DNA from: Mycoplasmataceae bacterium
GTDB lineage: Bacteria > Bacillota_I > Bacilli_A > Mycoplasmatales > Mycoplasmoidaceae
Direction of reading: 5' to 3'
Length of the DNA stretch: 37,715 nt
Assembly (NCBI GenBank): GCA_031281465.1
Contig: JAITFH010000004.1
Location: 1 to 37,715 of the forward strand
A program made the translations under genes and the position numbers. The notes beneath the pieces were generated by a model, which was not told the origin of the DNA, made no database searches, and saw only the letters and a list, made by a program, of their open reading frames with translations. Shown here piece after piece: positions 380-37,623 of this stretch (position 1 is the first letter of the stretch; every line of letters begins with the position of its first letter).

Positions 380-443
380 TTACTTTTTTACTTTTAAAAA
401 TCCACTGTTGAAATGCATATTCTGAAATTTCACTATATTTCCA
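303..443 (-). other. Open alternate frame overlapping the 3' end of the integrase gene
   Basis: A 47-codon frame without an early ATG overlaps the end of the recombinase gene in another frame and continues about 75 nt past its stop. It encodes a helix-like, charged segment containing AYNALLAREIPLEAVKTKK. Its composition looks more protein-like than the last residues of the annotated recombinase. It may be the original C-terminal tail separated by a frameshift near 443-460, a ribosomal-frameshift extension, or coincidence. No homopolymer slip site stands out. Confidence 0.3.
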
Positions 444-1306
444 TTATGGTACCCGTTAACCAATTCAAACGTATCGTAATTTCTAAGTGAAGATAAGATA
501 TAGTGCTCGCAACAAACTTTATGGGTATTACCAAGACACATACAGATTGAATCAATATCAACTCCTAAACTATAAGCACTCGTTGCAAACGTTCTCCGTA
601 ATGAATGAGCAGTAAATCTAAATTCAATCTTAGCTCATTCCTTAAAAACCCTAAAAGCATCTTGAATACCGCCTGGAGTAAGTTTTATTTTGTTGCTTGT
701 AAAAAAATCATAATCTTCCTTAGGAAAATAAATTTCTCTTTTTCGATGTGTTTTTTCAGTAGTAATAACAATTTCAGCTATTTCGCCATCTGTATATTGA
801 TTTTTTAGAAATCTAGCTTGACAGTCTTTTGTAAAATTTATTGAGCATAGTTCGCCTATTCTCATTCCAGAATTTACCAAAGCATTGAACACGTGGTATA
901 TTTTCTCTCTTGATTTTCTTAAATTTTCTCGGTTGTTGGGAATAACATTTTCAACATTATTTATCCATTCTTTAAATTTCTTGTGAAGAGAATCAATTTC
1001 TGCACAAGTCAATCTAGTAATATTTTTAGAAAACTCTTTGGGTGGCAGGTTTATCAATTTGTGATTATGTCGAATCCCATAGAATAAATCATAAGCTCAA
1101 TTAAAACCACAACCGATTTTAATTCCGGTATTTGCACACGTAGCATTTTTGATTAGTTCATTAACATTGCTTATGTTAGTTTTGTAGTTTTTTCCAAAAC
1201 AGTTTTTGACATTGTTTTTTATCAAGTAGTAATAAAAACTATATTTTTTCTCTAAGCATTTTTTAAGAATTTCTTTTACGCTTAATGTTATTGTTTTCTT
1301 CTCCAT
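380..1306 (-). CDS. Tyrosine recombinase (integrase)
   Basis: A 308-residue site-specific recombinase, the usual length for phage/ICE integrases, with one internal TGA read as Trp (codon 70). The catalytic domain shows the first arginine in GMRIGEL (Arg149), a likely beta-turn lysine in KTHRKREIYF, the HxxR box in HSLRRTFATS (His234, Arg237) and a nucleophile tyrosine in CEHYILS (Tyr269). The box between them reads LGNTH, so the usual second histidine of the LGH motif is Asn260. The N-terminal third resembles a SAM-like arm/core-binding domain. The enzyme should integrate, excise or resolve the element. I chose ATG 1306 because a TATACT box lies 9 nt upstream; a TTG at 1339 is the alternative. 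The C-terminus may be altered by a frameshift (see 303-443). It stands alone, downstream of parA on the same strand. Confidence 0.9.
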
Positions 1307-1315
1307 AATGTATGT

Positions 1316-1321
1316 AGTATA
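1316..1321 (-). promoter_or_regulatory. -10 box of the integrase gene
   Basis: TATACT on the minus strand, 9 nt before the integrase ATG. No Shine-Dalgarno fits in the short leader, as at several other genes in this window. Confidence 0.45.
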
Positions 1322-1418
1322 TAGGGGTATTTTAAGCAAATTTAACCTTTAGTTTATCATGAAATGATTTAAATTTCTGTAATTTCCTATGTGCGTATAG
1401 AATTCCGAAGCAAATATA

Positions 1419-3109: not shown

Positions 3110-3502
3110 TTAAATTTTGGTTTTTTGTTCGAGTTCTAGCACTTTGTCCAAAAGTAAACCATTATATATAGTATCAAATGCTTTAGTTATTTCGAGTTTA
3201 TATTTGTTTTGAATAGTTCCTGACTGATCGAGATTTAAAACATCGTCTTTCTTCAACATCCCAATCCTATTAACCAAAACTCAACTTCTTTCCCCTACTT
3301 TAACAGAAGTTTCAGGATGGCCAACTTCTGCGTGGCTAGACATTTCGAGATATAAAACTTTTCCTGACAATTTTTTATTAGCAGAATAAATCATTATTTT
3401 TCTTTTTCCTTTCGATTCTATTCCAGGAAAATTCTTGCCAAGTTCACTATCGTGTACTCAAAATGTGCATCACTTATAGTTATTTCAATCAGTATATTGC
3501 AT
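3110..3502 (-). CDS. MazF/PemK-like protein, tail-truncated copy
   Basis: A 130-residue protein with several TGA Trp codons. It carries a domain shared with the genes at 8049-8693 and 36997-37623. Key conserved pieces are a Trp-rich start (NNYKWCTFWV), KRKIMIYSANKKLSG, VLYLEMSSHAEVG and SWVLVNRIGMLKKDDVL. The order strand, (RP)-I-hydrophobic-S, T/SSH, then S-W-V-L-N-R-I resembles MazF/PemK endoribonucleases (RPVVVVSN...TS...S.VL..QI), but this is pattern-based and the catalytic residues are not certain. The protein ends just after the domain because the coiled-coil tail is frameshifted. ATG 3502 is preceded by a structured GC-rich leader and its own TATAAT box. A toxin-like RNase or a regulatory protein are the main options. 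Confidence 0.55.
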
Positions 3503-3602: not shown

Positions 3603-5078
3603 TTACAAATTTTTATTTTTTAGTTTCTGCCGAACCTCAGCAACACTTATCCCTAAATCGTTTGCAATTTGTTCTAACTTTTCTTTATTTTTTTCATCAC
3701 GAATTTGCTTATCCAGGTATTTTTCATCTAATGGTTTGAGTACATTTATATCAACTGTATTATTTTTAACATCGTGGTTATATTTTTGAAACGACTCATG
3801 GATTTGTTTTTGAATATTCCCATTACAAGCACATCTTGACAATTTTGTTTTCGTAGGAGAAGCTTTGTTTTTTCCTTTATTTGCAACATTACAAGCAGCA
3901 ACGCATCTGATTACTTCGTTTCCAACGTTTTTATTCAAGTCGTTAAATATCTTAGTTTCCACTTTTTTATCTATCAGCTCTTTCATTCCACCTTCTACGG
4001 TTTTCTCATTTCCTGCTAATTTATCTATTCTATCTTTTTTGTATTCTTCACAGAATTTGTTAAATTCTCTAGATTGTTTATTTAAAGCTTGATCGTACTC
4101 TACGATTGCTTTTGCATAATTATCGAGCATCGTTTTATAGGTAATTTGTTCTGGCTGAAGTTTTTTGTTAGATTCATCTATGTTGTTTTCTTTTAAATCC
4201 TTTAAAGAATAACAAGGAACTGATAGATTGTCATAAAATAAAGCTAAACCTTTTTGTTTTGCATTGGTGTGTTTATTGTTGTCGAAGTAACTATATTCTA
4301 CAGGTTGAGCTTTAAAAAGTTTAAATACTGCGGCTTGTTGTTTTTTTAATCCGTTAAATAATTTAGATAGTTCTTCTGTAGCGTGACTTCGAATCTGTTT
4401 TTCGTCAAGACTTTTCAAAAAAGAACGATTAATATCTTTGATATCGTTTTCTAGGTTGCTTTTTTTAACATAGATTTCTTTATTTTCTTCTAAACCTTTT
4501 ATGATGTTTGCAATATTAAATTTAGCTTCGCTAAATCCTCTATTTACCAATTTCATTCTGTTTACCATTTTTGTATCTGGAGTGTACTTTGGCTGATACA
4601 TTCTCATATGAATATGATATTTGCCTGTATTTTTATGCAAGACAGCATCATAGTTTAAAAATTTTTCATCAAATCCATATTTTTTATTCGCGTTAACAAT
4701 ATTCCTAAAAGCAATTCTAGCTATTTCTTTTGCTTTGCTGATATCCATATCCTCATTTAATTTGCTAATTTTTTTATCAAACGAAATTACCAAACTTCAT
4801 ATCAAAGAGTTTTCTGCAGTAGCACCCGTTACTTGACTAGAATCGTATTCTCACCCTAACTTATTAAATAAAGGAATTTTGGAATCTCCACCTTTTCCAC
4901 TAAATTTGTTTTCCCTAGCTTGATATTGGGCGAATGTTTCTTTTTCTACATTGTCTTTCTCTAGGCGATGTTTATTTTTATCTTCTAGATATTCCGCGTA
5001 GCCATTACCGGCGTAAAATTCATATTTTTCGTCGCCTGGTTTATATGTGTGATTATTTATTATTATTCCTACACTCAT
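3603..5078 (-). CDS. HUH relaxase (MobP-type mobilisation protein)
   Basis: A 491-residue protein, read through TGA Trp codons. The N-terminal 170 residues look like a MobP-type relaxase: tyrosines around YEFYAGNGYAEYLED that may include the nicking residue, a SLVISFDKK strand, and a three-histidine metal site in LHKNTGKYHIH (His148, His155, His157). The remainder is Lys-rich and helical, with a Cys-containing region (RCVAACNVANKGKNK) and a short C-terminal helix. The enzyme should nick oriT and stay attached to the transferred strand. It is the last gene of an operon with two zinc-peptidase-like genes; its ATG overlaps the preceding stop as TAATG. The fold is well supported; the exact subfamily is not. 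Confidence 0.82.
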
Positions 5079-6064
5079 TAAATTTCGTTGCTAATTTTTA
5101 TTTTTGGTTTTTCTTCTTGATGTTCTGCGTTGCGATTTTTATCTTCTTGTTGTTTTTTTCATTTTAAATATCTACGATAAGTTTCCTCTTCACTAACATT
5201 GTTAAAGTTATTGTTGTTTTCAGCAACCTGTTTTTCTAGGTTGTTATTTTTGATAATATATCTTTTAGACCTTTCAAATTTTATCAAGTAAACTCCTTCA
5301 ACTTTTTCTTTTCATTCTGTTCCACAGGAATTAAGTATTGTTTTATTTGTTTGGTTTTGGTATTGTTTATAGCTTTCTTCGTTTACTGTTCCATCCGGGT
5401 TCAAATAACCGTTTTTAATTCCAGCAAGTTTTGTTTGTTCTTTTAAGTATTCCAAATCTTCATTAGATATTGTTTTTGGATTTTTTAATTCTAGTAAAAA
5501 TATTTTTTTATCCTCCTGTTTCAATATGTTGCTGCAGTAGTTTTTTACTCCTAAAATGTCATAATCAATCTCATCTTTGCTATTAATTCCTATTCTTTTT
5601 GCAAATTTCATTATTTTTTCTTCTCCAGCATCTTTTAACGGTCCGGTATATCTAGCAAGATTGTAGTAACTTATTTTGCTTGCTTTTTCTTTACCGAACG
5701 CAATTCCGTTAAAAATATGTTGTCAATAGAACCAGGTTCTGCAGTGAGAATTTGGAACCAAACTAACTTTATGAGTAAAATAATGTGCTAATTCATGTAA
5801 CAAAACCATTTTTGTATAATTACTTCCTCAGTTAACTGATTTTTTACTATTTCATAAAATTGTATTTCCAGTAGTCATTCCATCGGCATTATTCAATTCT
5901 ATTCCTTGCCATTTCAATTCTTTTAAAGCTTTGATTGCACGAGAATTAGCTTCCTTGTCGCATTTAAGTTCTCATTCTTTATCATTTTTAATAGCTATTT
6001 CAACAGCTTGTAATCCAATTCCTGTTACTTGAGTAATTATTTTTTTGATATCTTGTTCTTTCAT
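5078..6064 (-). CDS. HELAH zinc-metallopeptidase-like protein B
   Basis: A 328-residue protein with several TGA Trp codons. The centre has the zincin motif VLLHELAHYF (His90, Glu91, His94) followed by a possible third ligand at His107 (NSHCRTW). It has no signal peptide and no membrane segment, so it is probably cytosolic. The C-terminal third is Lys/Glu-rich and contains NNLEKQVAEN, encoded by the dispersed palindrome at 5223-5245. It begins by TAATG overlap with the first zincin gene and ends the same way at the relaxase gene. A good AGGAGG lies upstream. SprT-like and ArdC-like zincins are known on conjugative elements, where ArdC counters restriction; that role here is an inference. Confidence 0.65.
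5223..5245. repeat. GCAACCT/AGGTTGT palindromic element inside zincin gene B
   Basis: Same sequence and orientation as the copies at 1419 and 22574. On the minus strand it is read in frame as NNLEKQVA within the C-terminal part of the zincin protein, so it behaves as an in-frame coding insertion. Confidence 0.75.
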
Positions 6065-7191
6065 TAGTTCATCCTCCTAGCTCTTGTATTTTCAAAAGTT
6101 TCGTCAACATCGGGGTTTTGAGTTATCTTTTTCCATGTTTTTAAACAAAGTTCGTAAGTACTTTTGTCGTAATCTTCCACTTCTCTTCTTCCTTCAAATT
6201 TTTCGAATAACTCAAATAATTCAGGTTTTTCTTCTAATAAATCTTCAGGTTTTCCAGAAAGATTAGGATTTTTACGATTAAATTCTTTGATTAAGAAATT
6301 GTTATTATTATCTATTTTTCAACCATATTGTTTTGCTGTTTCGCACAAACTGGCTTGATTTTTGATTTCTTGAAAATCGTCATAGTCAAGAATATTTTCG
6401 TTTTTGTGTTTAATTTCTTTAAATCCATATTTAACCAAATCTTTTGCTAAAATATATTTTGCTCTTTCTTCGCCGAAAACTTCTTTATTAAATTTGAATT
6501 CAGTTTCTATTCACTTTTTGCCATGCCCATTTTCATCAGCATACAAATGAGCTAGTTCGTGAGTGTAGATTGATTTAAATAATAGTCCATACTTTTGTTG
6601 AGCGAGAATGCTACAGTGACTTTGATTAAATAATACCGTTTTTGTTGTAAAACATGCTGTTGCCCAAGTCCTACTTCCAAAACTTTGATTTCAATCATTC
6701 AGTGCTTTAGCTACTTTGATTTCTTTATTTGTAATTTTTAGAATCGCATCTACTTCTGTTAAATACTTTACTTCAAGTGCGGTAAAATCTATCCATTTTG
6801 CTTTGTTATCAAAAAAAGATTTTTGTGCATCAGCATCAAATTTAAGAATATTTTTATCATAAAGTTTATATCTTTCAATCAGTTCTGTTGGCGAAATTTC
6901 TAGGGTCTCTTTTTTATAAATTGGCAATTGCTTTCCAGTTTTTTGACTTTTATATCATCCTTCAATATTGCCCTCACCTAAAAAATCACACTGTATTTTC
7001 TCGTTGTCTATTACCGTTCCATCCATTATTTTTAAAGGTAAAACAATTTTGTAATATTCAGGTAAATTTTTTGTCTGTTCCATAAAACTACACTTAATTT
7101 CTTTTGCTTTGTTGCTAATAAAAAGTCTGGTATTAACACTTTCTCCATTATCAAGAACTATATTTCGAAGATAATTAATCTCGCGCTTCAT
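6064..7191 (-). CDS. SprT-like HELAH zinc-metallopeptidase protein A
   Basis: A 375-residue protein, continuous only with TGA as Trp. The motif IYTHELAHLYADENGHGKKW (His211, Glu212, His215, His223) matches SprT/WSS1-type zincins, where HExxH is followed by HG and an aromatic residue. The N-terminal 160 residues are unassigned; the C-terminus is acidic and ends in RARRMN. No membrane segment is visible. It is the first gene of the zincin-zincin-relaxase operon. A TATAAT box lies 6 nt before the ATG (leaderless), behind a GCAACC/GGTTGC palindrome. Possible roles are an ArdC-like antirestriction protein or processing of protein-DNA adducts such as the relaxase. Function is inferred; the motif is clear. 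Confidence 0.65.
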
Positions 7192-7197
7192 ATTCTT

Positions 7198-7243
7198 ATT
7201 ATATAAAAATAAATTTTAGCAACCTATATAAATTGGTTGCTAA
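7198..7243 (-). promoter_or_regulatory. Promoter and palindrome between divergent genes
   Basis: The minus-strand TATAAT at 7198-7203 is 6 nt before the ATG of zincin gene A. Immediately upstream is a perfect 9-bp inverted repeat (TTAGCAACC at 7216-7224, GGTTGCTAA at 7235-7243). The same arrangement, with one mismatch, stands before the amidoligase gene at 24958-25006. It fits an operator shared by these promoters, or a terminator against opposing transcription. Confidence 0.6.
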
Positions 7244-8048: not shown

Positions 8049-8693
8049 TTACTTCTCATGCTTGTTGTCTAATTGTTTTTCTAAATCATCATCCAGCAAT
8101 TTTTCTTTTTCTAATAAGGATTTGTTTTGATATCTTAAATTTTTGTTTTCTTGTTCTAGGAATTGGTTTTGCTCTTTTAAGTTTTTGTTTTCTTCTAGCA
8201 ATTCTTTTTCTCGTTCTGTGGTAGATTGTTTATTGCCTTCAGTGTTTTCTACTTCTTGTTTGTTTTCAGATGATTCAGCTAATTGTTTTTGTAGCCTAAT
8301 ATTTTCTTCTTTTAATGTTTCGTTTCCTTCCACCAATTCATTACAATGTAATTCATTAAATTTAGACTGAATCGCATTTCTTAATTCGATTTTAACATTT
8401 CCAAAAAAATGTTTTTCAGTACACCAAAAAGGAAAAATAATTTGGCTTCTATTTGGCAAAGCTCAATTTTCCTTTTCTTTTCCTTTTTTGTCAATATATT
8501 TTTTTAGGAATATTGAATTGTCATCCATTTTATGACTCGAACATTCTATAGCAAGTCATCGATTGGATAATTTGGATGATGACGAGATAATAATAAGGGG
8601 GCGATATTTTGAATCGCTAATGTTGGGATAAGTTTTAATTAAATTTTCTTTTACTCAATAAATTTCTCATTTATGAGATTTATGACTTGGCAT
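8049..8693 (-). CDS. MazF/PemK-like protein with coiled-coil tail (intact middle copy)
   Basis: A 214-residue protein with TGA Trp codons. Residues 1 to about 105 hold the shared domain: WEIYWVKENL, YRPLIISSSSKLSN, LAIECSSHK and NWALPNRSQIIF. The pattern resembles MazF/PemK endoribonucleases (RP-hydrophobic-S, then TS/SSH, then S-V-L-x-x-I), though this copy is the most divergent of the three. Residues 120-214 form a Glu/Gln/Lys coiled coil that could mediate oligomerisation or partner binding. The tail is nearly identical in parts to the decayed tail at 2862-3109. ATG 8693 was chosen because it restores the whole domain and follows a structured leader. It is convergent with the GIY-YIG gene, with 5 nt between stops. 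Confidence 0.6.
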
Positions 8694-8795: not shown

Positions 8796-11609
8796 TTATT
8801 CCGCTAATTTATATATCAATTCTTCTTGTCATTCTTTTAATGATTCGACAGTTTTTTTCATTTCTTCTGCGGAAGCAAATTTTCAATACTTATTTAAACA
8901 CTCTCAACATTCTTTATCAGCATCACTCGACTTAATTGCTGCTTCAGTATTTTGGAAAGCAAAAACCATTAAATCTACCAACTTTATAATAAAAGGAATA
9001 TTTTCAGGAGTTTGTTCTCAGCTATAAACTTCTTTAAATTGATTATCTAACTTTTCAAGAGTACAATCGTCAAATGTAGGTGTAAAATCATACAATTCGT
9101 AATAAGTTTTGTATTTTCCTTTTAAAACATATTGTATCAAATTTTCTATATTAGTTTCGGTTTTTAAGATTTCTTCAATTTTAAACATTCCATAACTTCC
9201 CAGTAAAATGATAAATTTTTTAGGGACAAAATTTGGAATTTTAGACACATCACTGAAATCTTGATTTTTCAAATATTTTTCAGCTTCATCTATTATTTCT
9301 ATATACTTTGAAATTTCTGAAGTAGGTTGCTCGGGGATTGTGTTTTCGGTTAAATCGTTTTTTGCAACCTGATTTTCTAGGTTGCTATTATTATCTGATT
9401 CTTTAGAAGCATTAATATTTTTAACTATTCCTAAAGCTAAACAAGGAAGTCCACCGTTAATTTTTCTAAAGTCACTAAGTTTTTTCGCTTCTCTACTTGA
9501 AAAAATTTCACTATACTCTCCTTCAAAAGTCAATTTGTGAGCCAAATTACCCCTATAAGATACTTTTTCCTCTCCAGAATGCGGGATGTTTTGAAAAATC
9601 CAATATTTTACTATATCCGGATTTAGAATATCTTTAAAGTAGTCTATCTCATAATTGCTTTTTTCTCCGTATTTCATATCCTCACTATCACCAAATTTAT
9701 CAAGAATTTCGTTAACTCAAGGAACATTTAAACTAAAAGTTATCGCAACTTTACAAGGCTTCATTCCATTAGGCATAATAATCAACTCTTTGCCGCTTTG
9801 AAGATTTGCAAATTCTCCGGCAGTTATTTCTTCCATATTTACCATACTTTCACTATGCGATACTTTTCCATCATCGTTAATCGACTTAGAAGTTGTAGCT
9901 CTGAAATTTCTACCACTCTTTTTACTTAATCACTCAGCGAATTCAGGATTTACTCCAGAACAAAGAACAAAACATTGACAAGAATCAAATAATTCTTCTT
10001 TTCCATCTTTTCCATAAACTTTATTAATTTGTGAAATTGATTGGAAAGTTAGTAATCCCATTATGTTTTTACCTCTATCTAGCGAAAACATTTTTTGTAA
10101 AAAATCTATTTTAGGCAAATTTCCAAATTCATCAATGATAAACAATATTGCTTTTTCGAATGCAATAAGATTGTTTTTGAATAAATACTTATTTAAATGG
10201 TTGTAAAGTAGTTCCATAAATAATACAGCAAGTTTATTACTAGCTCCTTCTTTTTCACTTGGGTCATAGGAAATATAAATTACTGTTGGTTCTGTAATAA
10301 ATTTGTCAAAATCTATTTCAGCATTATTTGATGATGTTAAATTTTTAATTTCCTGATTGGTAAACATTTCTAATTTACTAAAAGCAATACTTTGGATAGA
10401 ACGGATGTCGTTTCTTTCTGAACCTCCCTTAAATTCGCTTACATAATGCTTAGACAATGCTCACTCTGGAAGCAAATCTTGAAGAATTATCATTCTGTCT
10501 TGAAATAAATTGACATTACTAGACACATTGAATAACGTGTAATCTTTTTTTTCAATACCATAATCTAGTATTAATAAAAAATATAACTTGATGAGTTTTT
10601 GTGCCATTTCATTTCAAAATACATCTTTTCCACTATTTTCAACTGGACAAATCGTAGTTGCAATTTGTTCTAACTTTTTCTGAATTTTACTTTTTGCATC
10701 CATTCATTTTTCGGAAAATGGATTTTCTCGACTCATTTCGCCAGGTTGCGATTTTTGCTGCTGCATTTTTAGCTTGTGTCATTCTGTCCAGTTTTTTAAG
10801 TAGTCGTTGTAATATATCTCTCAAATTTCACTTAAAGGATTTCAACTGTTGCTGAATTCTGGTTTATTTGTGTTGAAACGGTAAATGTTGTAACCATTTG
10901 CTTCGGCAATCTTTGCAGTTTTTTTGTAAATATCGCCTTTTAGGTCAGTAACTACCATACTGGATTTAGAATTCGAATTCAACAAATGTAAAATTGTTGG
11001 AATTATTACTTGCCAACTTTTACCGCTTCCAGCTCCTCCATAAACAATCGTTGATCCCGCAACTAAACTTTTGACAAGTTTTCCATTATTTATTCTTTCG
11101 TCTTTCCCTTCTTTTTTTAGTTTGTCTGATAAAACTTTTTTATCGCAAGCTAAAATATTGTAAGTAATCCCAGTAACTTTTTTCCCTTTAGAATCTTTAA
11201 CATCGTTAATTCCTTCTATGGTTCAAAGTGGATAAGAAGGTTTGGTTTCATCTTTGATAATCACCATCTTTTCTTCTAATTCATCTTGTTTTAGTCATTT
11301 CGCAGAATAATCGGTTTTGGAAATTTGTTTGTCTTTGTCAATAAATCTTCCGCCAAATTTCTTGTGATAGCGCAAAAAACAAAACAATGTAATCCCAAAA
11401 GAAACTCCTAAACCGATAAGTAAATTTCTTCAGCCCTCAAGTTTTCCTACTCATTCAGTTACGAAAGTTTCGAACGTGTGGGTTATTTTAAAATTAAATA
11501 ATCAGAAAAGAAGCGAAATCCCAATTCAAATCAACACTGCACAAACGATGTTAATCCCTAACACCATCATTACTTTTATTTTTTTAGGTTGTTCAGAGAA
11601 TGGTCTCAT
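8796..11609 (-). CDS. VirD4/TraG-type coupling ATPase
   Basis: A 937-residue type IV coupling protein, continuous with TGA as Trp. Two membrane segments lie near the N-terminus (about residues 14-35 and 58-75). The ATPase domain has Walker A YGGAGSGKSW (Lys197) and Walker B LFIIDEFGNLP (Asp493, Glu494). The C-terminal 250 residues are variable and contain NLENQVA, encoded by the palindrome at 9364. It should link the relaxosome to the transfer channel. I prefer ATG 11609 over 11615, because TATAAT on the minus strand then sits 7 nt upstream, the spacing seen at other genes here. The GC-rich hairpin at 11625-11700 lies just upstream. It is separated from the relaxase operon by the GIY-YIG and MazF-like genes. 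Confidence 0.92.
9364..9386. repeat. GCAACCT/AGGTTGC palindromic element inside the coupling-protein gene
   Basis: Read on the minus strand as SNLENQVA in the variable C-terminal region of the coupling protein. It has the same reading phase as the copies in the zincin B and amidotransferase genes. Confidence 0.7.
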
Positions 11610-11616
11610 TGTCATT

Positions 11617-11622
11617 ATTATA
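11617..11622 (-). promoter_or_regulatory. -10 box of the coupling-protein gene
   Basis: TATAAT on the minus strand, 7 nt before ATG 11609. The sequence is nearly palindromic, so TATAAT also reads on the plus strand at 11619-11624 and could drive the GC-rich segment to its right. Confidence 0.45.
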
Positions 11623-11624
11623 AT

Positions 11625-11700
11625 ATTGGGGCTATGCCCCAAACCCCAAACCCATCAACTTTAAAAGAGATGGGTTCGCCGTCTGCGGAAATTTTGTAGC
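11625..11700. promoter_or_regulatory. GC-rich hairpin region upstream of the coupling-protein gene
   Basis: The segment contains a perfect GGGGC-TAT-GCCCC hairpin, then CCCC/CCC runs and a second stem between AACCCATC and GATGGGTT. In plus-strand sense, GGGGCTATGCCCC resembles the GGGGCTACGGTCCC of the leader at 36970. No gene follows on the plus strand, so it may be a small RNA, an attenuator read on the minus strand, or a relic of a fourth MazF-like locus. Confidence 0.45.
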
Positions 11701-13325: not shown

Positions 13326-13616
13326 TTATTCTTTTTTTTGTCTTTCAAGGAAACAAATATAAGCGTCCTCAAACTCATATTCGCCGCCAAATCTTTCTCT
13401 GCCTTCTTTTTCAGCGAAACATACAACTATTTGTTTTATAAAAGCGCTAAATGACTTAATATTTTTAGCATATTCTTGTTCAAATATATCTTTTAAGACT
13501 CACAAGTACTTTTTACTAAGTTTTAGTGACACTAATTCTTCGTAAAGCTTTTCTTTGGGAATTTTGGTTTTTTCTACTTTTCTTAATAAATCCTGGTTTA
13601 TTTTGGTGTTATTCAT
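13326..13616 (-). CDS. Small helical hypothetical protein
   Basis: A 96-residue charged, helical protein with one TGA Trp codon (SKKYLWVLKDIFEQ). No membrane segment or known motif is visible. Its ATG overlaps the stop of the upstream 53-residue gene as TAATG, showing translational coupling within the minus-strand operon starting at 14727. Confidence 0.65.
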
Positions 13617-13777
13617 TAAAATTCTTTGCCTCCTCTGCCGTGTTCAAAATCATCATCGTGTTGTCTTTCTTTAAGTATTCTTTCACCGTTTTCTCTTACA
13701 TAATTAGTTAAGTCTTTTATTTCTTCTGTAAGCGGATTTTTTCACACTATTTCTACTCAACTTGTTGTTTTTACCAT
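13616..13777 (-). CDS. 53-residue protein sharing its C-terminus with the VapD-like protein
   Basis: A 53-residue protein that needs two TGA Trp codons. The N-terminus reads TTSWVEIVWKNPLTEE and resembles the start of the gene at 19323-19604 (NNWLELEWNEPLTDKE). The C-terminal 20 residues (ERILKERQHDDDFEHGRGG...) are almost identical to the end of the VapD-like protein at 18953, and the DNA is near-identical over about 60 bp. It thus looks like a head from one family joined to a tail from another, by recombination within the element. Confidence 0.6.
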
Positions 13778-18548: not shown

Positions 18549-18953
18549 CTACTCAAATTTCTCCTTTTTAGTGCTGTTTTGTTTATCTATCGGAGTATAC
18601 TTTTTATCTATCATTTTACCAGCAAAACTGTCTCGTAAAACCGAATTACTTATCGAACTTTTATTATTGTATTTTGTTCTGTTTCTTCTCAACAATAGTT
18701 TTTGCATAGCAAATATTACTTCTAAAATAACAAGAACCGAAAACGTAATTCCAGCCCACATTGGACATCACATAAAAGGTGAGTAAGTTCCGTTGAATAT
18801 ACCAATCAAAAATTCTCATCGTATCACTATTAACGGTATTTCTATCGAAAAAATGATGATTGGTATTGAAATAATCATCCAATTACACACAAGCTCTCGT
18901 TTGTTGTACTTGTGAGTTCCTAAAAATCAAGTAGACATTTTAAATTCAGACAT
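18549..18953 (-). CDS. Two-helix membrane protein
   Basis: A 134-residue protein with several TGA Trp codons. It has a polar start, a hydrophobic helix (about residues 25-45), a short external loop rich in aromatic residues and a second helix (about 66-86), then a basic polar tail. No family is recognised. Its ATG overlaps the stop of the VapD-like gene (TAATG). It may anchor or export a neighbouring product. Confidence 0.65.
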
Positions 18954-19318
18954 TAAAAATCTTTACCTCCTCTGCCGTGTTCAAAATCATTGTCGTGTTG
19001 TCTTTCTCTAAGTATTCTTTTCCCAGCATCAACAACATACTGAGATAGGTGATTAATTTTTTTTGGGTTAAAAGTTGCTCAATCAAATTTAGTACATTCG
19101 GAAGCAATTTGTGGGAATTTGGCAATAAATTCATTGGTTAATGAAATTATGTCTTCAGTGAACATTTTTTCTTTTGTTAAATAATTACTGTCTTTCATTC
19201 AATTAAAACCGTGAGATATCATAAATTTTTTTATTTGCACATAGTGGTATGTATTGAATTTTTTATTCTTTGTGTCTAAATCAAATAATAAATACCAGTA
19301 TTCTTTTTTTTCTTTCAT
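18953..19318 (-). CDS. VapD-like protein with extra C-terminal tail
   Basis: A 121-residue protein. The first 85 residues fit the VapD family, a ferredoxin-fold relative of Cas2 with RNase activity in some members: YLLFDLDT at 9-16, a helix ending HGFNW, DSNYLTKE, then an SLTNEFIAKFP helix. The family's C-terminal strand is weak. Residues 88-121 form an added tail (VVDAGKRILRERQHDNDFEHGRGG...) also present in the 53-residue protein at 13616. It is coupled to its neighbours in the surface-protein operon. It could be a toxin-like RNase, with the 93-residue protein upstream as a possible antitoxin; this is inference. Confidence 0.6.
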
Positions 19319-22545: not shown

Positions 22546-23223
22546 CTAAAACTTGCGATTTTTGCCGATATTCGCAACCTGTTTTTCTAGGTTGTTATTT
22601 TCTGTTTTTTCTGGTTTAAAAAAATCAAAAATAGACTCATCTTCTTTAGAATAATTATTGTCTCATCCATACAAACTTCCTTTCTTTCAACTTTTCCAGA
22701 TTCCGTTATCCCACGTTCCTAAATCGTCGTTAATAAAGTTAAATTTGTCTTTTTCTAAAACTAGTATTTTGTTACTATGAAAAATTTCCTCGTATTTCTT
22801 TTTTGTGGCTTCGTTGTCCAAGTCCGAGATTCTGAAATTATTTTCACGAAAATATTGAGCAATTCATTGAGTATCGCTCATTCCATTACCCATATCAAAT
22901 TCTCTGCAAATTCCATTATGCATTATTCACATATCTTCTTTTACCGATATTGGATGAATTTGTTCAAGACTTTTTCCACCACTTGTTCCTATTCTAAAAT
23001 GAATGCCGAAATTGCTAATATTTTTCAAGTTTTCTATTTCTTCGATTTTTTTATATATTTCAGTAAAAGGTGTGCCTTTTAAAAATTTATGCACAAGAAG
23101 TTTTTGACTTTCTATATCGTAATAGATTAAGCCAGTTCCATCAGGGTTTGTCATTAAACTCACTTCCAGTTCTTTTTCATCAAACTTCACACTATTATTC
23201 TTTTTAAATAAAATTCTGCACAT
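22546..23223 (-). CDS. Class II glutamine amidotransferase-like Ntn hydrolase
   Basis: A 225-residue protein. It starts Met-Cys-Arg-Ile-Leu, so removal of Met would expose Cys2 as the N-terminal nucleophile of class II glutamine amidotransferases. Other family landmarks follow in order: NPDGTGLIYY (27-35), HFRIGTSGG (75-83), HPI (90-92) and MHNG (101-104). The last 120 residues are specific and end with NNNLEKQVA, encoded by the palindrome at 22574. The enzyme would split glutamine or a gamma-glutamyl compound. Its ATG directly follows the stop of the amidoligase gene, so the two form one operon. Such pairing is known in comparative genomics of amidoligases and suggests a joint modification pathway. 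Confidence 0.75.
22574..22596. repeat. GCAACCT/AGGTTGT palindromic element inside the amidotransferase gene
   Basis: Read in frame on the minus strand as NNLEKQVA, 17 codons before the stop of the amidotransferase gene. It matches the copies at 1419 and 5223 almost base for base. Confidence 0.75.
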
Positions 23224-24951
23224 TTATATTCCGTGTTCCTCTTCGTTTTGGTGTTCTAATTCTTGCGGTTCTTCGAAAGTTTCGTTTTCTCGAGCTTTGG
23301 TAATTGTTTTTACTGCTGTTAAAATTCAAGCATTAAGATTTTCCGCTTTTTCGAAATTCGCACTTAATCCGAGTTTGATATCTTCATCATCATATCCCAA
23401 TGACTTTAGGGAGTTATTTAATTCTTTTCTAAAATCGATAACTTCGACATATTCAGGAACATCTTCTTTGCCGTACACAACTTCTTTTCCTAGAACTTTG
23501 CTTAATTCTTGTGCTAAAACTTCAAGATTTCGTTCAGGATTTGGAATAGAATTAAAGCCTCTGAATTCAATAGTTTTGGCGTTTTGATAATTTAAAATTC
23601 CTCTTCCTTCTGCATTGATTTCAAAATTAGCCGTAGCAAGAACTTTTCCTTCTGGAAAATTAATTGGTTGGTTATCATCCATAATTAAAGTTTGTTTTCA
23701 TCTAATTACATTTTCGATTATTTTAATATCACCACCTAAGTCATTAATTTTTAGTCCCATCTTGTTACCGTAGGTATCTTTGAATTTTTTTGTTTGGAAA
23801 TCATTAATTATTTGTCCTCTACCAAAAAATTTAGACAAATCTTTGACATTTTTTATAAAATGTTTCGCTATTTGAACCTGTTTGATTGTATCTTTTGGTT
23901 TGTCGACATGGATATGTCCGCCCGCTCCAGCTTCAGCACCGAAAACAGAATCTACTTCCGCTAAACATTTACCAAGCTTAGCTCATACTTCTTTAGCTTC
24001 ATCATAAGTCAATGGTTGAACATTAATTTCAGCATTAACATATTCTTTCCCATTAATGTTAGTTTTGACAGTAACATCGTAAGAAGGATATATCAGATTT
24101 TTTTCGCAAAGTCCAGATTCTTCACATTTTTTCAAAAATTCAGCAACTCGATTTTTTGGAATTGACACTTCTTGTTCTAAACCAAATAAGTATTTGCCAG
24201 GATTTTTTTGAAGTCAATACTTGTTGTACTCATCTAAAATTTTTCGAGAATTTTCAGGAAAACATTCGGATTTTTCGTGAGGGTTGTTTGTAGGACTATT
24301 TCCTCCTCCGCAACGAGCAGAATGTGAAGGATATACGTAATTAGGGTTTTTAACTTTAGTATAAACACCTCATTCATTAAATCTTCAGTATTCTTGTCTA
24401 ATTGGTAGTTCCTTCTTTTTGTTTTCGATAATTAAATCTACTTTGTTAACTAATTCTTTAACCGTATTTTTTCCTTCTTCGTTAGATAAAAATTCATCCG
24501 GATTAAGCACTAATTTTTGAATTTTTATCAAATTCATTAATAAACTGCCGCTTTCTGGTATTCATTTTCAGTCATCATTTTTAACATAAATTGATTGTAA
24601 TTGATTTACAAATTTTCCAGGATTTGGATATTTTAAATTCGAAGAATTTACAACGTTCGACGAACTTCATTCGTTAGAATCAAAAACATAAGACTGTTTG
24701 TTTTCTTCGTACAAATCTATTACATCGTATCAAAATTGTTCTGTTTTACTTATCGTAGTAAACTCTGTAAAATTTTGGTTGCAGTAGTTGATTATCGATT
24801 CTACTATTTCAACATTACTAATTCTCAGGTCATTTAAAACCTCATACAACGGTTTGGTTTGAAGGACTCTTTCTTGTGGAAAATCTGCAAAAAAACCTTT
24901 TATTTGTTTTAAAAGATAGTTGTAATTACTAATTTTTTTACTACTTGGCAT
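23224..24951 (-). CDS. Glutamine-synthetase-fold amidoligase
   Basis: A 575-residue protein with TGA Trp codons. Residues 250-520 match the amidoligase fold related to glutamine synthetase/GCS2: YLFGLEQEV (Glu259, Glu261), VNAEINVQPLTYDEA, GAGGHIHVD (His346, His348), FFGRG (Arg378) and KTIEFRGFNS (Glu462, Arg464). Enzymes of this group join a carboxylate to an amine with ATP, often on peptides or proteins. The N-terminal 250 residues are unassigned and include ARCGGGNSP. The gene is leaderless (TATAAT 6 nt before ATG) with a GCAAC/GGTTGC palindrome upstream, and is followed directly by a class II amidotransferase-like gene. No substrate can be deduced; element or surface proteins are candidates. 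Confidence 0.72.
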
Positions 24952-24957
24952 AATATT

Positions 24958-25006
24958 ATTATAAAGAAAAAATAAATTTTAGCAACACATTTATATTGGT
25001 TGCTAA
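24958..25006 (-). promoter_or_regulatory. Promoter and palindrome of the amidoligase operon
   Basis: TATAAT at 24958-24963 is 6 nt before the ATG. Upstream is TTAGCAAC (24979-24986) with GGTTGCTAA (24998-25006). The block from the palindrome through AAATTTATTTTT to the -10 box is nearly the same as that before zincin gene A at 7198-7243, so the two operons may share control. Confidence 0.6.
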
Positions 25007-25009
25007 TTC

Positions 25010-27565
25010 TTATTCTATCTCATCTTTAGTTTCTTTTTGTCAAAGTTGGATAGGTTCTGCAATGTTTTCGTATTTAACTCTTACCAAATAATCTGGAATA
25101 TTATTTGTGGATGCAGAATAAATTCTACCACTAATTCTTTCTTTTTCTCCCAAAATAATTACAAATTTACCACCATCCATATTTGAACTAGTTGCTAGGT
25201 ACATCCTTTCTCCATCTGTCAACTGGCCAGTATCATACAAAATTATGTTATTCAAATCTTCTAACTGTCTTTCACCCATTCCCAAAATTACTTTGTAATA
25301 AGAGTTATCTAAAATTTGCGTTAAGTATCTTTTAACATCTTCGTTTTGAGCTTTTGTAAAAGTTGAAATACTTTGAGTGGTAACAACGATTTGACAATAG
25401 TATTTTCGTAATTGTGCATACATAGAACTTAATAATTCTAACCCTTGTGGGAATTTGTTATTTACTAATTTGTGAAACTCATCGATAATAAATGTAATAT
25501 ATTTAGCTTTTGGGTCTTTTTCGTTTGGAAATCTTTTTCTTTGTCCTAACATCACATTGTTTCAGTAACGCATTACACTCATTAACATTGCTGTTTTAAT
25601 CTCGTCTGGAGTATCTTGATCCAGCAACCCATGTAAATTAAACACAACAAGTTGGTTTTTGTCTTCTACGTTAATGTTTGTATATTTGTTAAACACCCCG
25701 TCATAAACTCCATATTTAGTAAACGGTTTGATTAAACGTATCATTCTTTTATAATCTTCCAGTTCGTTATAGGTATCTTTTTTTTCCAATTTTTGACTTT
25801 CTTTAACCAAATTATCAAATAAATCATCTAGTGTTGGTCATTCATTATTTTTAACAATATTAAAATTCGAAGTGTTTTTAATATTAAATTTAGAGTAAGT
25901 ATCTTCTATTTCTCGCGAAAGTACATTGATTTCGTTTATCGAAAGTTTTTCGTTTTCTTTTGATAAAACTATTCTTAAAATACTTTCTATATACGAAACT
26001 TGACTAACATAAGCATTTCGTTTAGTAGAATCAGTTGCTTCTGTTAAATAAGATTGAGAATTATCGTCTCATAAGTCTAATTGAGGAATTTGAAAAATAT
26101 TAATGCTCGGACTTTCCTTGCTAGCATTTCTAGTAAATTCAATTATTTGCTGTTGGAAATTTCTCGCTAAATCGGTATATTCATTTTCAAAATCAATAAC
26201 TAATGTTTGTTGGTTTTTTGGATTTAATAAATTTCCTAGTATCATTATTCTATTCAAAGTAGATTTACGAGAACCAGAAGTTCCTCATACACACATATTA
26301 CCGTTGATAGCTTTTGTTCTGTCGCACAAATTAAAAACCAAAGGACTACCACTTTGGCTGATTCCAATCAGTGTTCCTTCTTTTTGAAATAAAGAAGTTT
26401 GTATGAAAGGGTAGGCATTAGCTATTGCATCGCTTGGAAAACACATTTCTAAATCTTTTTGGTATGTTACCATTAATTTTCTTCTTCCACATCTGAATGG
26501 TTGTAAAAATTCCAGAGCTTCTTTTTGTCTGAATGATACATTTCCATAAATCATTCCCATTCTTTTTAAAGCATTGTTTACTTCGATAAATTTAGCTTTC
26601 ATTTTTGCTTTAGTTTTCGCAGTAATTTTAATTAAACATGTTACCAATTTGACATCTTGTTCACCTGAAGCTACTTGATAAATAAAATCTTCGATTAGCT
26701 GCCTAGTTATAGCAATTCTTTCATTACGAATTTGACTTTTGTATTGTTTAACTGCGACAAAATCAGTTTTTAAACTTCCTAAAAAAGCATCTCTTTTATT
26801 TTCTTCCAGTGTATCAACATCGAAAGAAACGAAAATGTCGTTTATTTCAAATAAGTTTGCTAGTCAAAATGGTTCCAAAGGAATAAAAGTGTCAGCAGTT
26901 TGACGAATATTAATTATTTTTGTTCAAGTGTCAGATTTTACTTTTCCATTGTCATCATAGTGTAAATCATGCATTTTATTCACTTTGATTTCTAGCTCAT
27001 GGTTTTTTATTACGAACCCTTTAAATTCTTTAGGAAGTGTAAAAATTTGATTAAACACACCTTGTATAACTTCATTATCAGCATCAATTAAATTTAGTCC
27101 AGCACGGAATAATCGAAGTTTTATATTTTCAACAAAGTTTTTGATTTTTTGAATTCCACTCGCACTAGAAACAGCAAAAACATAAGTTTTCTTACGCATA
27201 TCATTCTGGATGCTACTAATATCTTTGTAAGCATTTTGGTAAACTTCGGCTGTTTTTTTGATATATCTTTCGGTACTTTCCTCTTTAATTTTTTCTAATC
27301 GTTCTTCTTCGCTACTGAAGTCAAACAAACTTTGTAAACAATATAGACGAAGACTGAATTCGTTGTTAAATTCTTTAACCACACTTCCGAATTGATTCAT
27401 TCTGAATACTTGCATGTTATCACTTGCACTTTCAATGTTTTCGGCTTGAATAACAAAAAAACCTGTGTTAATGTTATTAAAACCTTCCACAAAATTATGA
27501 TTAGTGACGGAAATTTGTTTTCAGTAATTTAATTGATAATTTAAAGCTTTTTTAAATCTTGCCAT
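25010..27565 (-). CDS. VirB4/TraE-type ATPase A, with altered P-loop
   Basis: An 851-residue type IV secretion ATPase with TGA Trp codons. The N-terminal 420 residues match the VirB4 N-domain style. The P-loop reads GTSGSRKST (428-436): Arg433 replaces the glycine before Lys434 (CGT instead of a Gly codon). Walker B is intact (YITFIIDEFHKL, Asp695, Glu696), and TTQSIS follows as expected. A GGAGG lies upstream of ATG 27565. It is the last gene of module A after VirB6- and VirB3-like genes. The substitution may weaken nucleotide binding, so the protein may depend on ATPase B (33388-36165). A sequencing error is the alternative. Confidence 0.88.
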
Positions 27566-27617: not shown

Positions 27618-28079
27618 CTATTCTTTAAATTCCTCCTTTTTGGGTTTTTCTTTATTAAACACTCTTGACAAAATATCTTTTGGTTTTTGTTTACTTTCGT
27701 CAAATTTTGGCTTGTCGTATTCTTTTTTAGGTTGTGGTTCTTCTGGCTTGTTTTCGATAACATTTTCTTCAGTAACTAAATTTTTGTCCGTCATAAAAAC
27801 GAATTTTAACATTTTAAATGTTGTAACTCAAATTTTTTCTTTCCCTAAAAATCCCATTGGTCATACTAGAAAAGCTCCAAAACCCAACAATACAATTAAA
27901 ATTAATATTGCTGCTCAAGTAGGCAAAGTGGTAGTAAACATAATCACCAAACCTGCAAGTAAAAATAATACGATAATCAACATATCTCAAATAGTAAAGT
28001 TTTTATAAATTTTAAATTTGTTTTTTCTTGGTGTTGGAACCGGTGGAACAACTACGGTTGGGTTATTGTTTTCTAGCAT
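27618..28079 (-). CDS. VirB3/PrgI-like membrane protein
   Basis: A 153-residue protein with TGA Trp codons. It has a Pro-rich start (VVVPPVPTPRK), two close membrane helices (about residues 34-52 and 56-78), and a charged Lys/Glu/Pro-rich tail. Position between VirB6 and VirB4, and the two-helix layout, match VirB3/PrgI-type inner-membrane subunits. In module B the equivalent region is fused to VirB4. Its ATG overlaps the VirB6 stop (TAATG). Confidence 0.68.
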
Positions 28080-30052
28080 TATTTTTTATCTCCTTTGGGA
28101 CCTTTTCATTCGGCAATAGCTTTACCGCCAGTTTTTCGCCAATTTCCGAAATCTTTTGAAAGCAATCCATCTTTTCCATTGGCAGCTCTATAAAGTGAAT
28201 AATCGCTAATTCCTTTTCTTGCATTCGTTCCTAAACGTCCTACTTGCTGACTTCCTTGATTTGCAACAGATTTTGTTCCATGTCCATACTGTTGTCTACC
28301 AGTTCCACTTACATTTGCGTACTGGTCACCAAAACTTCTCAATTGTCCAGCTTCTCCTAAAATCATTGTACACAATGTATTTCCCATGTAATAACTTCCT
28401 ACAAACAACAACACAGTAGCAAATATTACTGCCGAATTACTAACATTGAACCATTTTGTTTGTTTAACAGCTGCATTGTCCATTAATGCTTGCATAAAGC
28501 CTATATTGATTAAAGTATTAGTTAATGTGAATACCAATTCGATAAATAAAATGGACAAGGTTTTAATTGCTACAGCTCTCATTATTATTTTAAATTGCGT
28601 TCCTTCACCGTCATCCTTAAAACCAACAATAATACTTCCTAATCATAATATTATTAATTCTAATATTCTACCTACCATATATCAAGCATATGCCATCATT
28701 CCTGCCATCATCATGTTTGCTACCATCATTCCTACCACAACTCTTTCCATATGCCCTGTAAAAAAACTATCATATGCTGAAAAATATAAATTTCATACTG
28801 AAAAATTGGAGTTAACTCCGCTTCCGCCGAGTACTCACGAATTAATCATTCCAGCTAATGTAAATGTAGGATTTGGGTTGGCTCGTTGATAGTAGCTGTC
28901 GATACCTATTCATTGGGAATTGTATGGTAATCCACTCGTTGTAGATACTGTTCAGTATCCTGAAGCTATCGGTTTGCCGCTTTCTGAACAGCCTTCAAAA
29001 ACTTGAGAGATGGCAGAAATATAAATTTGAGTTTTACCTGTTTGAGTAATATTTTGATCAACAAAAACGTTGTATGGAGTAAATTCATAATTGCTAAGTA
29101 TTCCAGGGTTTTCTCCTCCAAAAGTGATTGCTCCTAACCATCCATGGTTATAATTGCCATCACCAAAAATATAGACAAAAGCTGATTGAGCATCTGCGGT
29201 AGTAATTATGTCTTTATATCCTTCTATCGAATTTAAATCCGTGATTAAAGAACCGAAATTATTCTGTGCATCATAAAATGCATCATAAACTTCTTGTAAT
29301 GGTTGTAAATCGCTTAGTCTTTGTCCTATTGGTAAAGTCCTACTAATTTCAACTAAATGATTGAATTGATTTAAAAACCATTCATCGTTTTGTTGTTGCA
29401 GTGTAGCTAGTTCTTGTAAAATTTTAGAAATTTTTGTTTGCACATCAGCATAGCCATTAGCTTGAGCATTTAAAGTATTTAGTTGTTCTGTTAAATCTAT
29501 AAGTGATTGTCCTCAAGCAACAGCTTCACCATTGATTTTCCAAGAACTTCCGAGAATGTCGTGTATTTTGCCGCCATAAGCTTGCATTATTGTTGCAAAT
29601 GTTGAATTTTCGGAAGCACTAATCATAGAAGCACTAGAATTTCCGGACATGATATTGAACAATAAAGCAGTAATAGTTGTACTAAACATAAATACGATAG
29701 GTACTAATACTATTGATGCCATTCCATAGCTTATTCTTGCTAACGAAGTAGCTTGCTTAATTCCTTTATTTGTCCAATTCGCCACTGCACGGCACAAAAT
29801 ACATACAACAAAACTTATAGCGCCAATGATTAAAGCTCATAGCAAAAATTGGCTAAAACCATTATTTCAATTGACTCCAACACCGTTTGTGCTTCCGAAT
29901 AATTCTCTAGCGAAGTTACTCATTCCTAAAGTTGAGTAAACTTGGAAGCCAACATTAGTGATTATTAATGGCACATAGACTCCGATAGCAAATCCTAACG
30001 GAATCAAAAGGAAACTTCCAACCATTTGAAACAATGCAAATATAGCACCCAT
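28079..30052 (-). CDS. VirB6/TrbL-like polytopic membrane protein A
   Basis: A 657-residue protein with TGA Trp codons. Three hydrophobic segments in the first 150 residues (about 5-35, 66-90, 105-140) are followed by a large external domain with helical, Gln-rich parts and an aromatic region, then a second cluster of at least three helices (about 400-560). The Gly/Gln-rich C-terminal tail is cytoplasmic. This split arrangement is seen in VirB6-like channel proteins. The gene order VirB6-VirB3-VirB4 supports the call. The partner copy is at 31163-33388. The region before ATG 30052 has TATATA-type sequence on the minus strand, so transcription diverges from module B. Confidence 0.78.
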
Positions 30053-36996: not shown

Positions 36997-37623
36997 ATGG
37001 ATACTGACTGAAGAAAATATAAGTGACAGACTTTTTTAGTAAGTGATGAACAACTAGGAAAAAAATACAAAGGAGTAAAGAAGAAAGGACTTCGTCCAAT
37101 TTTAATTTATTCGCTAAGTATGAAACTTTCAGACAGAGTATTGTATTTAGAAATGTCTACTCATCCAGAAATTGGTAACCCCGATACTTCTGTTAAAGTA
37201 GCTGAATGAATTAGTAAAAAAACAAACACAAAAGAAGAGAGTTGGGTTCTAGTCAATAGGATTGGTTTATTCAATAAAGGCGAACTTTTAAATTCGCCAA
37301 GAGGACGAGAAATAAAAAAGGAATATAGAAAAGAAATAAAAGAAAAATTTTCATCTTTATATGACAACGAAATAGTAAAACAATTAATTAAACAACAATC
37401 GGTAAATAAAACTATAGAAGAACAAAAACGAATCCTGGCTAAAAAAGTGGTAGAGGAAAGCAGAACAAAAGAAAAAATGATTAAAGATTTTTGTAATATT
37501 AAAAATCTAGATGAATTAGTTAAGTTACAAGAAAAACTAAAAAATGAATTAGCAGAAAAGAAACAGGAAGAAAAAAAGAAAGATAATGAAGAAGAACAAG
37601 AAAATGAGTTTAATTTAAAATAA
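36997..37623 (+). CDS. MazF/PemK-like protein with coiled-coil tail (right copy)
   Basis: A 208-residue protein with TGA Trp codons. The N-terminal 110 residues contain KYKWQTFLVSDEQLGKKY, KKGLRPILIYSLSMKLSD, VLYLEMSTHPEIGNPDTS and ESWVLVNRIGLFNKGELL, the clearest match of the three copies to the MazF/PemK pattern (RPIL-S, STH, SWVL..RI). The rest is a highly charged Lys/Glu coiled coil unlike the tail of the 8049 copy in sequence. Possible roles are an RNase toxin with RNA or protein control, or a DNA/RNA-binding regulator. It is the last gene in the window. Confidence 0.6.

Follow-up and report, generated by a model that had tools for sequence, protein, structure and literature searches.

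Two touching genes on a conjugative element of a mollicute (a Mycoplasmataceae bacterium) are best read, with a probability of about 0.6, as encoding one glutamine- and ATP-dependent amide-forming enzyme, a divergent relative of a two-gene phage cassette that is carried as cargo of the element and acts on a substrate other than peptidoglycan. The window (the whole stretch of 37,715 nucleotides that was analysed) makes up all of contig G000:C49 in a draft genome of 1.25 Mb, and the coordinates of its relevant features are given in Table 1.

Both open reading frames need genetic code 4 (TGA = Trp), with ten internal TGA codons in the amidoligase gene and four in the amidotransferase gene, and at their junction (ATA TAA ATG TGC) zero bases lie between the genes. 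The adjacency and the motifs reported in the first-pass annotation were recovered: the amidoligase carries GLEQE at residue 257, GGHIH at 344 and TIEFR at 460, and the amidotransferase carries MC, HFRIGT, HP, HNG and SDT. Neither motif set occurs in any other ORF of the window or in any of 100,000 shuffles of either protein; both sets exceed chance. Among 31 amidoligases the invariant positions are GxExE (257-261), D292, ExxxxP (308-313), GxHxH (344-348) and ExR (462-464), and among 26 amidotransferases they are C2, R77, T80, G82, H90, P91, H102-N103-G104 and S116-D117-T118. The Cys directly after Met1, together with the invariant Arg, HNG and Asp residues, is as expected of a class II amidotransferase. 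That both genes are real, with the biochemistry assigned to them, is well supported.

Table 1. Features of the gene pair and of its surroundings (window coordinates)
Feature	Position	Strand	Basis or remark
Amidoligase gene, 575 aa, GS-like catalytic domain and N-terminal helical region	23224..24951	-	code 4
Class II (N-terminal Cys, Ntn) glutamine amidotransferase gene, 225 aa	22546..23223	-	code 4
Predicted GS-fold region of the amidoligase, residues 252-490	23482..24198	-	alignment of 31 sequences and structural match
C-terminal tail of the amidoligase, residues about 506-558, possibly related to RuvA domain III	23278..23436	-	RuvA profile E 1.2e-5
22-bp imperfect palindrome that precedes the amidoligase gene and shares bases with the first hexamer of the promoter-like site	24982..25003	.	
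Promoter-like site TTGCTA-16-TATAAT	24958..24985	-	consensus match only
Second palindrome copy, in the 3'-terminal part of the amidotransferase coding sequence, where it encodes NNLEKQVA	22574..22595	.	
VirB4-like conjugation ATPase, next gene upstream of the pair	25010..27565	-	NF045975 298.9 bits, under cut-off 590
Mbov_0396-like ICE transmembrane protein (context)	28079..30052	-	33.4 bits, cut-off 70
Type IV coupling protein (context)	8796..11642	-	PF02534 149.9 bits
MobL relaxase (context)	3603..5078	-	PF18555 45 bits, cut-off 28.5
Tyrosine integrase (context)	380..1339	-	PF00589 42.1 bits

The structure model of the amidotransferase, computed from the 26-sequence alignment (pLDDT 84, pTM 0.79), is predicted to adopt the Ntn-hydrolase fold, with matches to EgtC (Z 14.8), to the glutaminase domain of GlmS (Z 13.6) and also to PurF. 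The likeness to EgtC and GlmS extends to the catalytic residues, whereas the window protein is short and stands alone, shares only 12-17% identity with these domains and has another partner. The model of the amidoligase, computed from the 31-sequence alignment, is weak overall (mean pLDDT 54.9, pTM 0.42), only the core and the tail being confident. Its top 50 PDB matches listed were all glutamine synthetases or close GS-family enzymes, and the best of them was a glutamine synthetase (Z 12.5, rmsd 2.9, 154 residues, spanning residues 252-490); the Foldseek match to GS-family enzymes had an E value of 6e-6, and the best matches among viral proteins were mostly named amidoligases. Low-confidence models can mislead, but this agreement is independent of the motif reading, and the protein is predicted to have a GS-like catalytic fold. 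Both folds named at first pass are supported by the models, and the refuting loss of fold was not seen; that the motif residues meet in one active site is presumed from the GS-fold alignment of residues 252-490 and from the invariance of the residues.

The Pfam families Amidoligase_2 and GATase_6, to which the first-pass annotation had pointed, were not reached: neither window protein matches Amidoligase_2 (PF12224) or the GATase_4/GATase_6 families. Relatives of the amidoligase scored 16.7 and 19.5 bits against the Amidoligase_2 gathering cut-off of 22, and the nearest mollicute relative of the amidotransferase scored 19.6 bits against a cut-off of 23. A profile built from mollicute amidoligases only recovers six Bacilli members of Amidoligase_2 (E values from 8e-8 to 1.3e-3, the best shuffle giving 0.052). 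The amidoligase is a divergent relative working like Amidoligase_2 and no member by Pfam's rule; it is filed in this way because the window sequence gives no Pfam match and its relatives score below the cut-off. Single-sequence searches of NCBIfam and PHROGs with the window proteins gave no lead to families, and nothing was found by tblastn of the window amidoligase in plasmids and phages, by tblastn of the amidoligase from genome G005, by scanning viral sequences with either the amidoligase or the alignments from mollicutes, or by a PDB sequence search. With PADLOC, neither protein of the pair matched a defence family; one weak match, to LmuB, fell on the coiled tail of the amidotransferase of genome G001.

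Regarding known relatives, a phage two-gene cassette (MEP401 gp05-gp06, MEP402 gp06-gp07, MW202733 and IMG/VR contigs) shares with the window pair the enzyme types, their order, touching or overlapping genes and similar lengths. The best phage match of the window amidotransferase was MEP401 gp06 (tblastn E 4e-7), and the gene just upstream of the amidotransferase gene encodes an amidoligase in MEP401, MEP402 and MW202733, and likewise in an Acinetobacter phage. A search seeded with phage amidotransferases yielded 80 viral loci. Of these, 64 had enough upstream sequence, and in all 64 the next ORF upstream carries the amidoligase motifs, mostly with an overlap of a few bases; the count comes from one seeded search with many close kin and does not stand for 64 independent cases. 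Alignment of mollicute-only with phage profiles by hhalign gave 96.2% (E 2.7e-9) and 99.6% (E 1.2e-23). The window pair differs from the cassette in its conjugative element, its code 4, its RuvA-like tail and its amidoligase sequence (14-19% identity). The window amidotransferase falls in a separate clade (support 98/88) in a tree that is unrooted, has very long branches and gives no direction of transfer of the pair.

Amidoligase and amidotransferase genes also occur together in LUZ24-like and OM43 phages, for which wall modification has been proposed (PMC3890496, PMC10580990). The LUZ24-like and phiEco32-like clusters resemble the window in this combination but add ATP-grasp and GGCT/UPF0131 genes, to which UFV-P2 adds a second COOH-NH2 ligase gene; the window ORFs scanned include none of these three. 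Tn6164 of Clostridioides difficile, with Amidoligase_2 and GGCT (AIG2), is a further case of an amidoligase on mobile DNA, here of Gram-positive relatives, but the Bacilli Amidoligase_2 loci differ in the partner, with a GGCT-like neighbour in 7 of 27 and an amidotransferase neighbour in 0 of 27. The type of pair is therefore already known as a phage gene pair, and its setting in a mollicute element appears to be new as far as could be found. The first-pass annotation knew of no such pair in a mollicute element; a literature search indeed found no paper on an amidoligase in such an element, but the pair recurs in another element within the genus, and as a phage pair the type is established.

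The window contig itself is a conjugative element: read with code 4, it encodes a tyrosine integrase, ParA, a MobL relaxase, a type IV coupling protein, ICE-type membrane proteins and two ATPases of the VirB4 kind. With a relaxase, a coupling protein, VirB4 and an integrase present, the conjugative setting proposed earlier is confirmed and the setting is not that of a phage genome. The two markers of the Mbov_0396/0397 type of mollicute ICE, VirB4 and the transmembrane protein, score below the NCBIfam cut-offs (Table 1), and the element is related to, but divergent from, that type. The contig ends show no mutual overlap and no clear chromosomal gene; a sister element in genome G001 abuts chromosome-type genes. 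By eye only, the G001 and G020:C2 elements seem to stop at one and the same chromosomal place (L009 11465-12901 and L147 5998-7386), and a DisA/CdaA-like gene adjoins this shared-looking end.

Among further observations on the element, three related proteins (WxxYxWxTFxV...) are scattered over it at 3110-3502, 8049-8693 and 36997-37623; their genes include similar DNA stretches of 75-77% identity, and the proteins match no Pfam family, chance-level matches aside. A direct repeat of 70 bp (93% identical) was seen at 18951-19020 and 13614-13683.

Of 36 genomes in the genus, profile searches detected the amidoligase core in three (the window genome, G001 and G005); nowhere else among 320 genomes of the order was it found. 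In all three the two genes are separated by 0-1 base or overlap by 1 base, and two of the three pairs directly follow the virB4 gene of a conjugative element. In G001, which answers the search for the pair in other mollicute ICEs, the pair is part of a second element, with VirB4, a small membrane protein and a transmembrane protein next to it; identity to the window is 37% for the amidoligase, 53% for the amidotransferase and 58% for the VirB4. The pair of G005 is on a 5-kb contig of undefined type. A related amidotransferase without an adjacent amidoligase was found in G028, and another, split into two ORFs, in G008 (L012 14816-15402). The G028 contig carries ORFs that resemble Cas1, Cas2 and Csn2, by eye only (L013 17841-19697), and the broken gene of G008 has a dCMP-deaminase-like gene on one side and two unidentified genes on the other.

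At four loci of the genus with a VirB4 gene (G018, G006, G033 and G020:C6) the pair is absent, which rules it out as core T4SS machinery. Behind the closest VirB4 (G020:C2, 65% identical), the slot holds other sequence and no pair, though the contig stops at this point. As related elements do without it, the pair is accessory cargo.

According to the preferred reading, the amidotransferase would split glutamine and supply ammonia, with Cys2 acting as the nucleophile once Met1 is removed, Arg77 and Asp117 binding glutamine, and Asn103 and Gly104 forming the oxyanion hole; the amidoligase would use its GS-type Glu and His residues to bind metal and ATP, activate a carboxylate with ATP and join the nitrogen to it. 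These residue roles are presumed from established knowledge of GlmS and glutamine synthetase. We infer each of catalysis, complex formation and ammonia transfer, a complex of the two proteins being suggested by the tight coupling of their genes.

Mollicutes have no cell wall, so that in place of peptidoglycan a carboxylate on a protein, or else a small metabolite, is the most probable substrate. The transpeptidase family was not found in the window genome, a control finding it in 10 of 14 named genomes, so that the earlier dismissal of wall-related roles stands. A surface protein, also suggested earlier as the target, is not supported so far: the neighbouring 968-aa membrane-anchored protein was dropped as a candidate substrate, since it has no counterpart beside the pair in G001.

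The best-surviving alternative, unlikely though credible, has the amidoligase form a gamma-glutamyl or isopeptide bond between a carboxylate and an amine or amino acid, with the Ntn enzyme hydrolysing such a bond instead of supplying ammonia, in the manner of EgtC in ergothioneine synthesis. The gamma-glutamyl hydrolase EgtC gives the best Ntn match, about 1 Z from the GlmS glutaminase domain, but a fold match cannot separate a glutaminase from a trimming activity. Gamma-glutamyl cyclotransferase and ATP-grasp genes occur in the larger phage clusters but are absent among the window ORFs scanned. It is very unlikely that the pair tailors a small peptide or metabolite that the element itself produces, a kind of pathway for which GS-like amidoligases have been predicted (PMC10580990, citing Iyer et al. 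2009), as the scan of window ORFs brought up no further gene for biosynthesis. Modification of peptidoglycan or envelope that blocks superinfection, put forward for phiEco32-type and related phages (PMC10580990, PMC11318856, both with reference to Iyer et al. 2009), is scarcely credible in a wall-less host whose genome yielded no transpeptidase, although exclusion that acts on surface proteins is conceivable. Decaying passenger genes without function, to which the broken amidotransferase of G008 would point, are just as improbable, with both ORFs intact and all catalytic columns kept at the identities to G001 given above.

The genome-wide profile search with the amidoligase kept returning proteins of about 200 amino acids that aligned to its C-terminal tail, and these are RuvA. 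A profile of 12 mollicute RuvA proteins taken from these matches hits the tail of the G001 amidoligase at an E value of 1.7e-10 and the window tail as listed in Table 1, the best of 2000 shuffles giving 0.39; the matches fall at RuvA positions 114-198 and 145-197, and the tail is modelled as three helices (pLDDT 81-93). Pfam RuvA_C matches neither tail, while it does match a RuvA protein of a mollicute. The tail is limited to the two amidoligases of conjugative elements; the G005 and phage proteins end before it or lack it. It is possibly homologous to RuvA domain III; three-helix domains recur, so the likeness may also be convergent. In RuvA, domain III tethers the complex to the RuvB motor (PMC9477746), and by analogy the tail may dock the amidoligase to RuvB or another AAA+ protein. 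That the element took up a phage-type enzyme and a RuvA-like tail that leads it to the host RuvB or AAA+ motor, where it would amidate or tag a recombination or replication protein and so favour transfer, integration or maintenance, is a distinctly unlikely scenario as a whole.

The palindrome upstream of the amidoligase gene belongs to a family, GCAACC-N10-GGTTGC with at most one mismatch, that occurs seven times in the window (at 1419, 5223, 7219, 9364, 11734, 22574 and 24982) against about 0.2 copies expected, and seven of the eight copies in the genome are on this contig. Some copies are intergenic and three lie inside genes, where they encode (N)NLEKQVA or NLENQVA; the exact motif is absent from the sister element of G001. 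The family is possibly an operator, partition or recombination site. At 1440-2581, ParA precedes a small protein whose C-terminus is ribbon-helix-helix-like and which is a candidate binder of the 22-bp palindromes. Over 54 bases, the stretch upstream of the amidoligase gene (24953-25006) is 83% identical to that upstream of the gene at 6064-7191 (7190-7243), which suggests that the two genes may be under shared regulation.

Amidoligase-amidotransferase pairs are common in phages, and the published guess for them is wall modification, with no tested substrate reported in the literature found. A copy in a wall-less host removes the wall as a candidate in this lineage and narrows the hunt for the target to a small proteome, and the RuvA-like tail, if real, would provide a concrete candidate binding partner.
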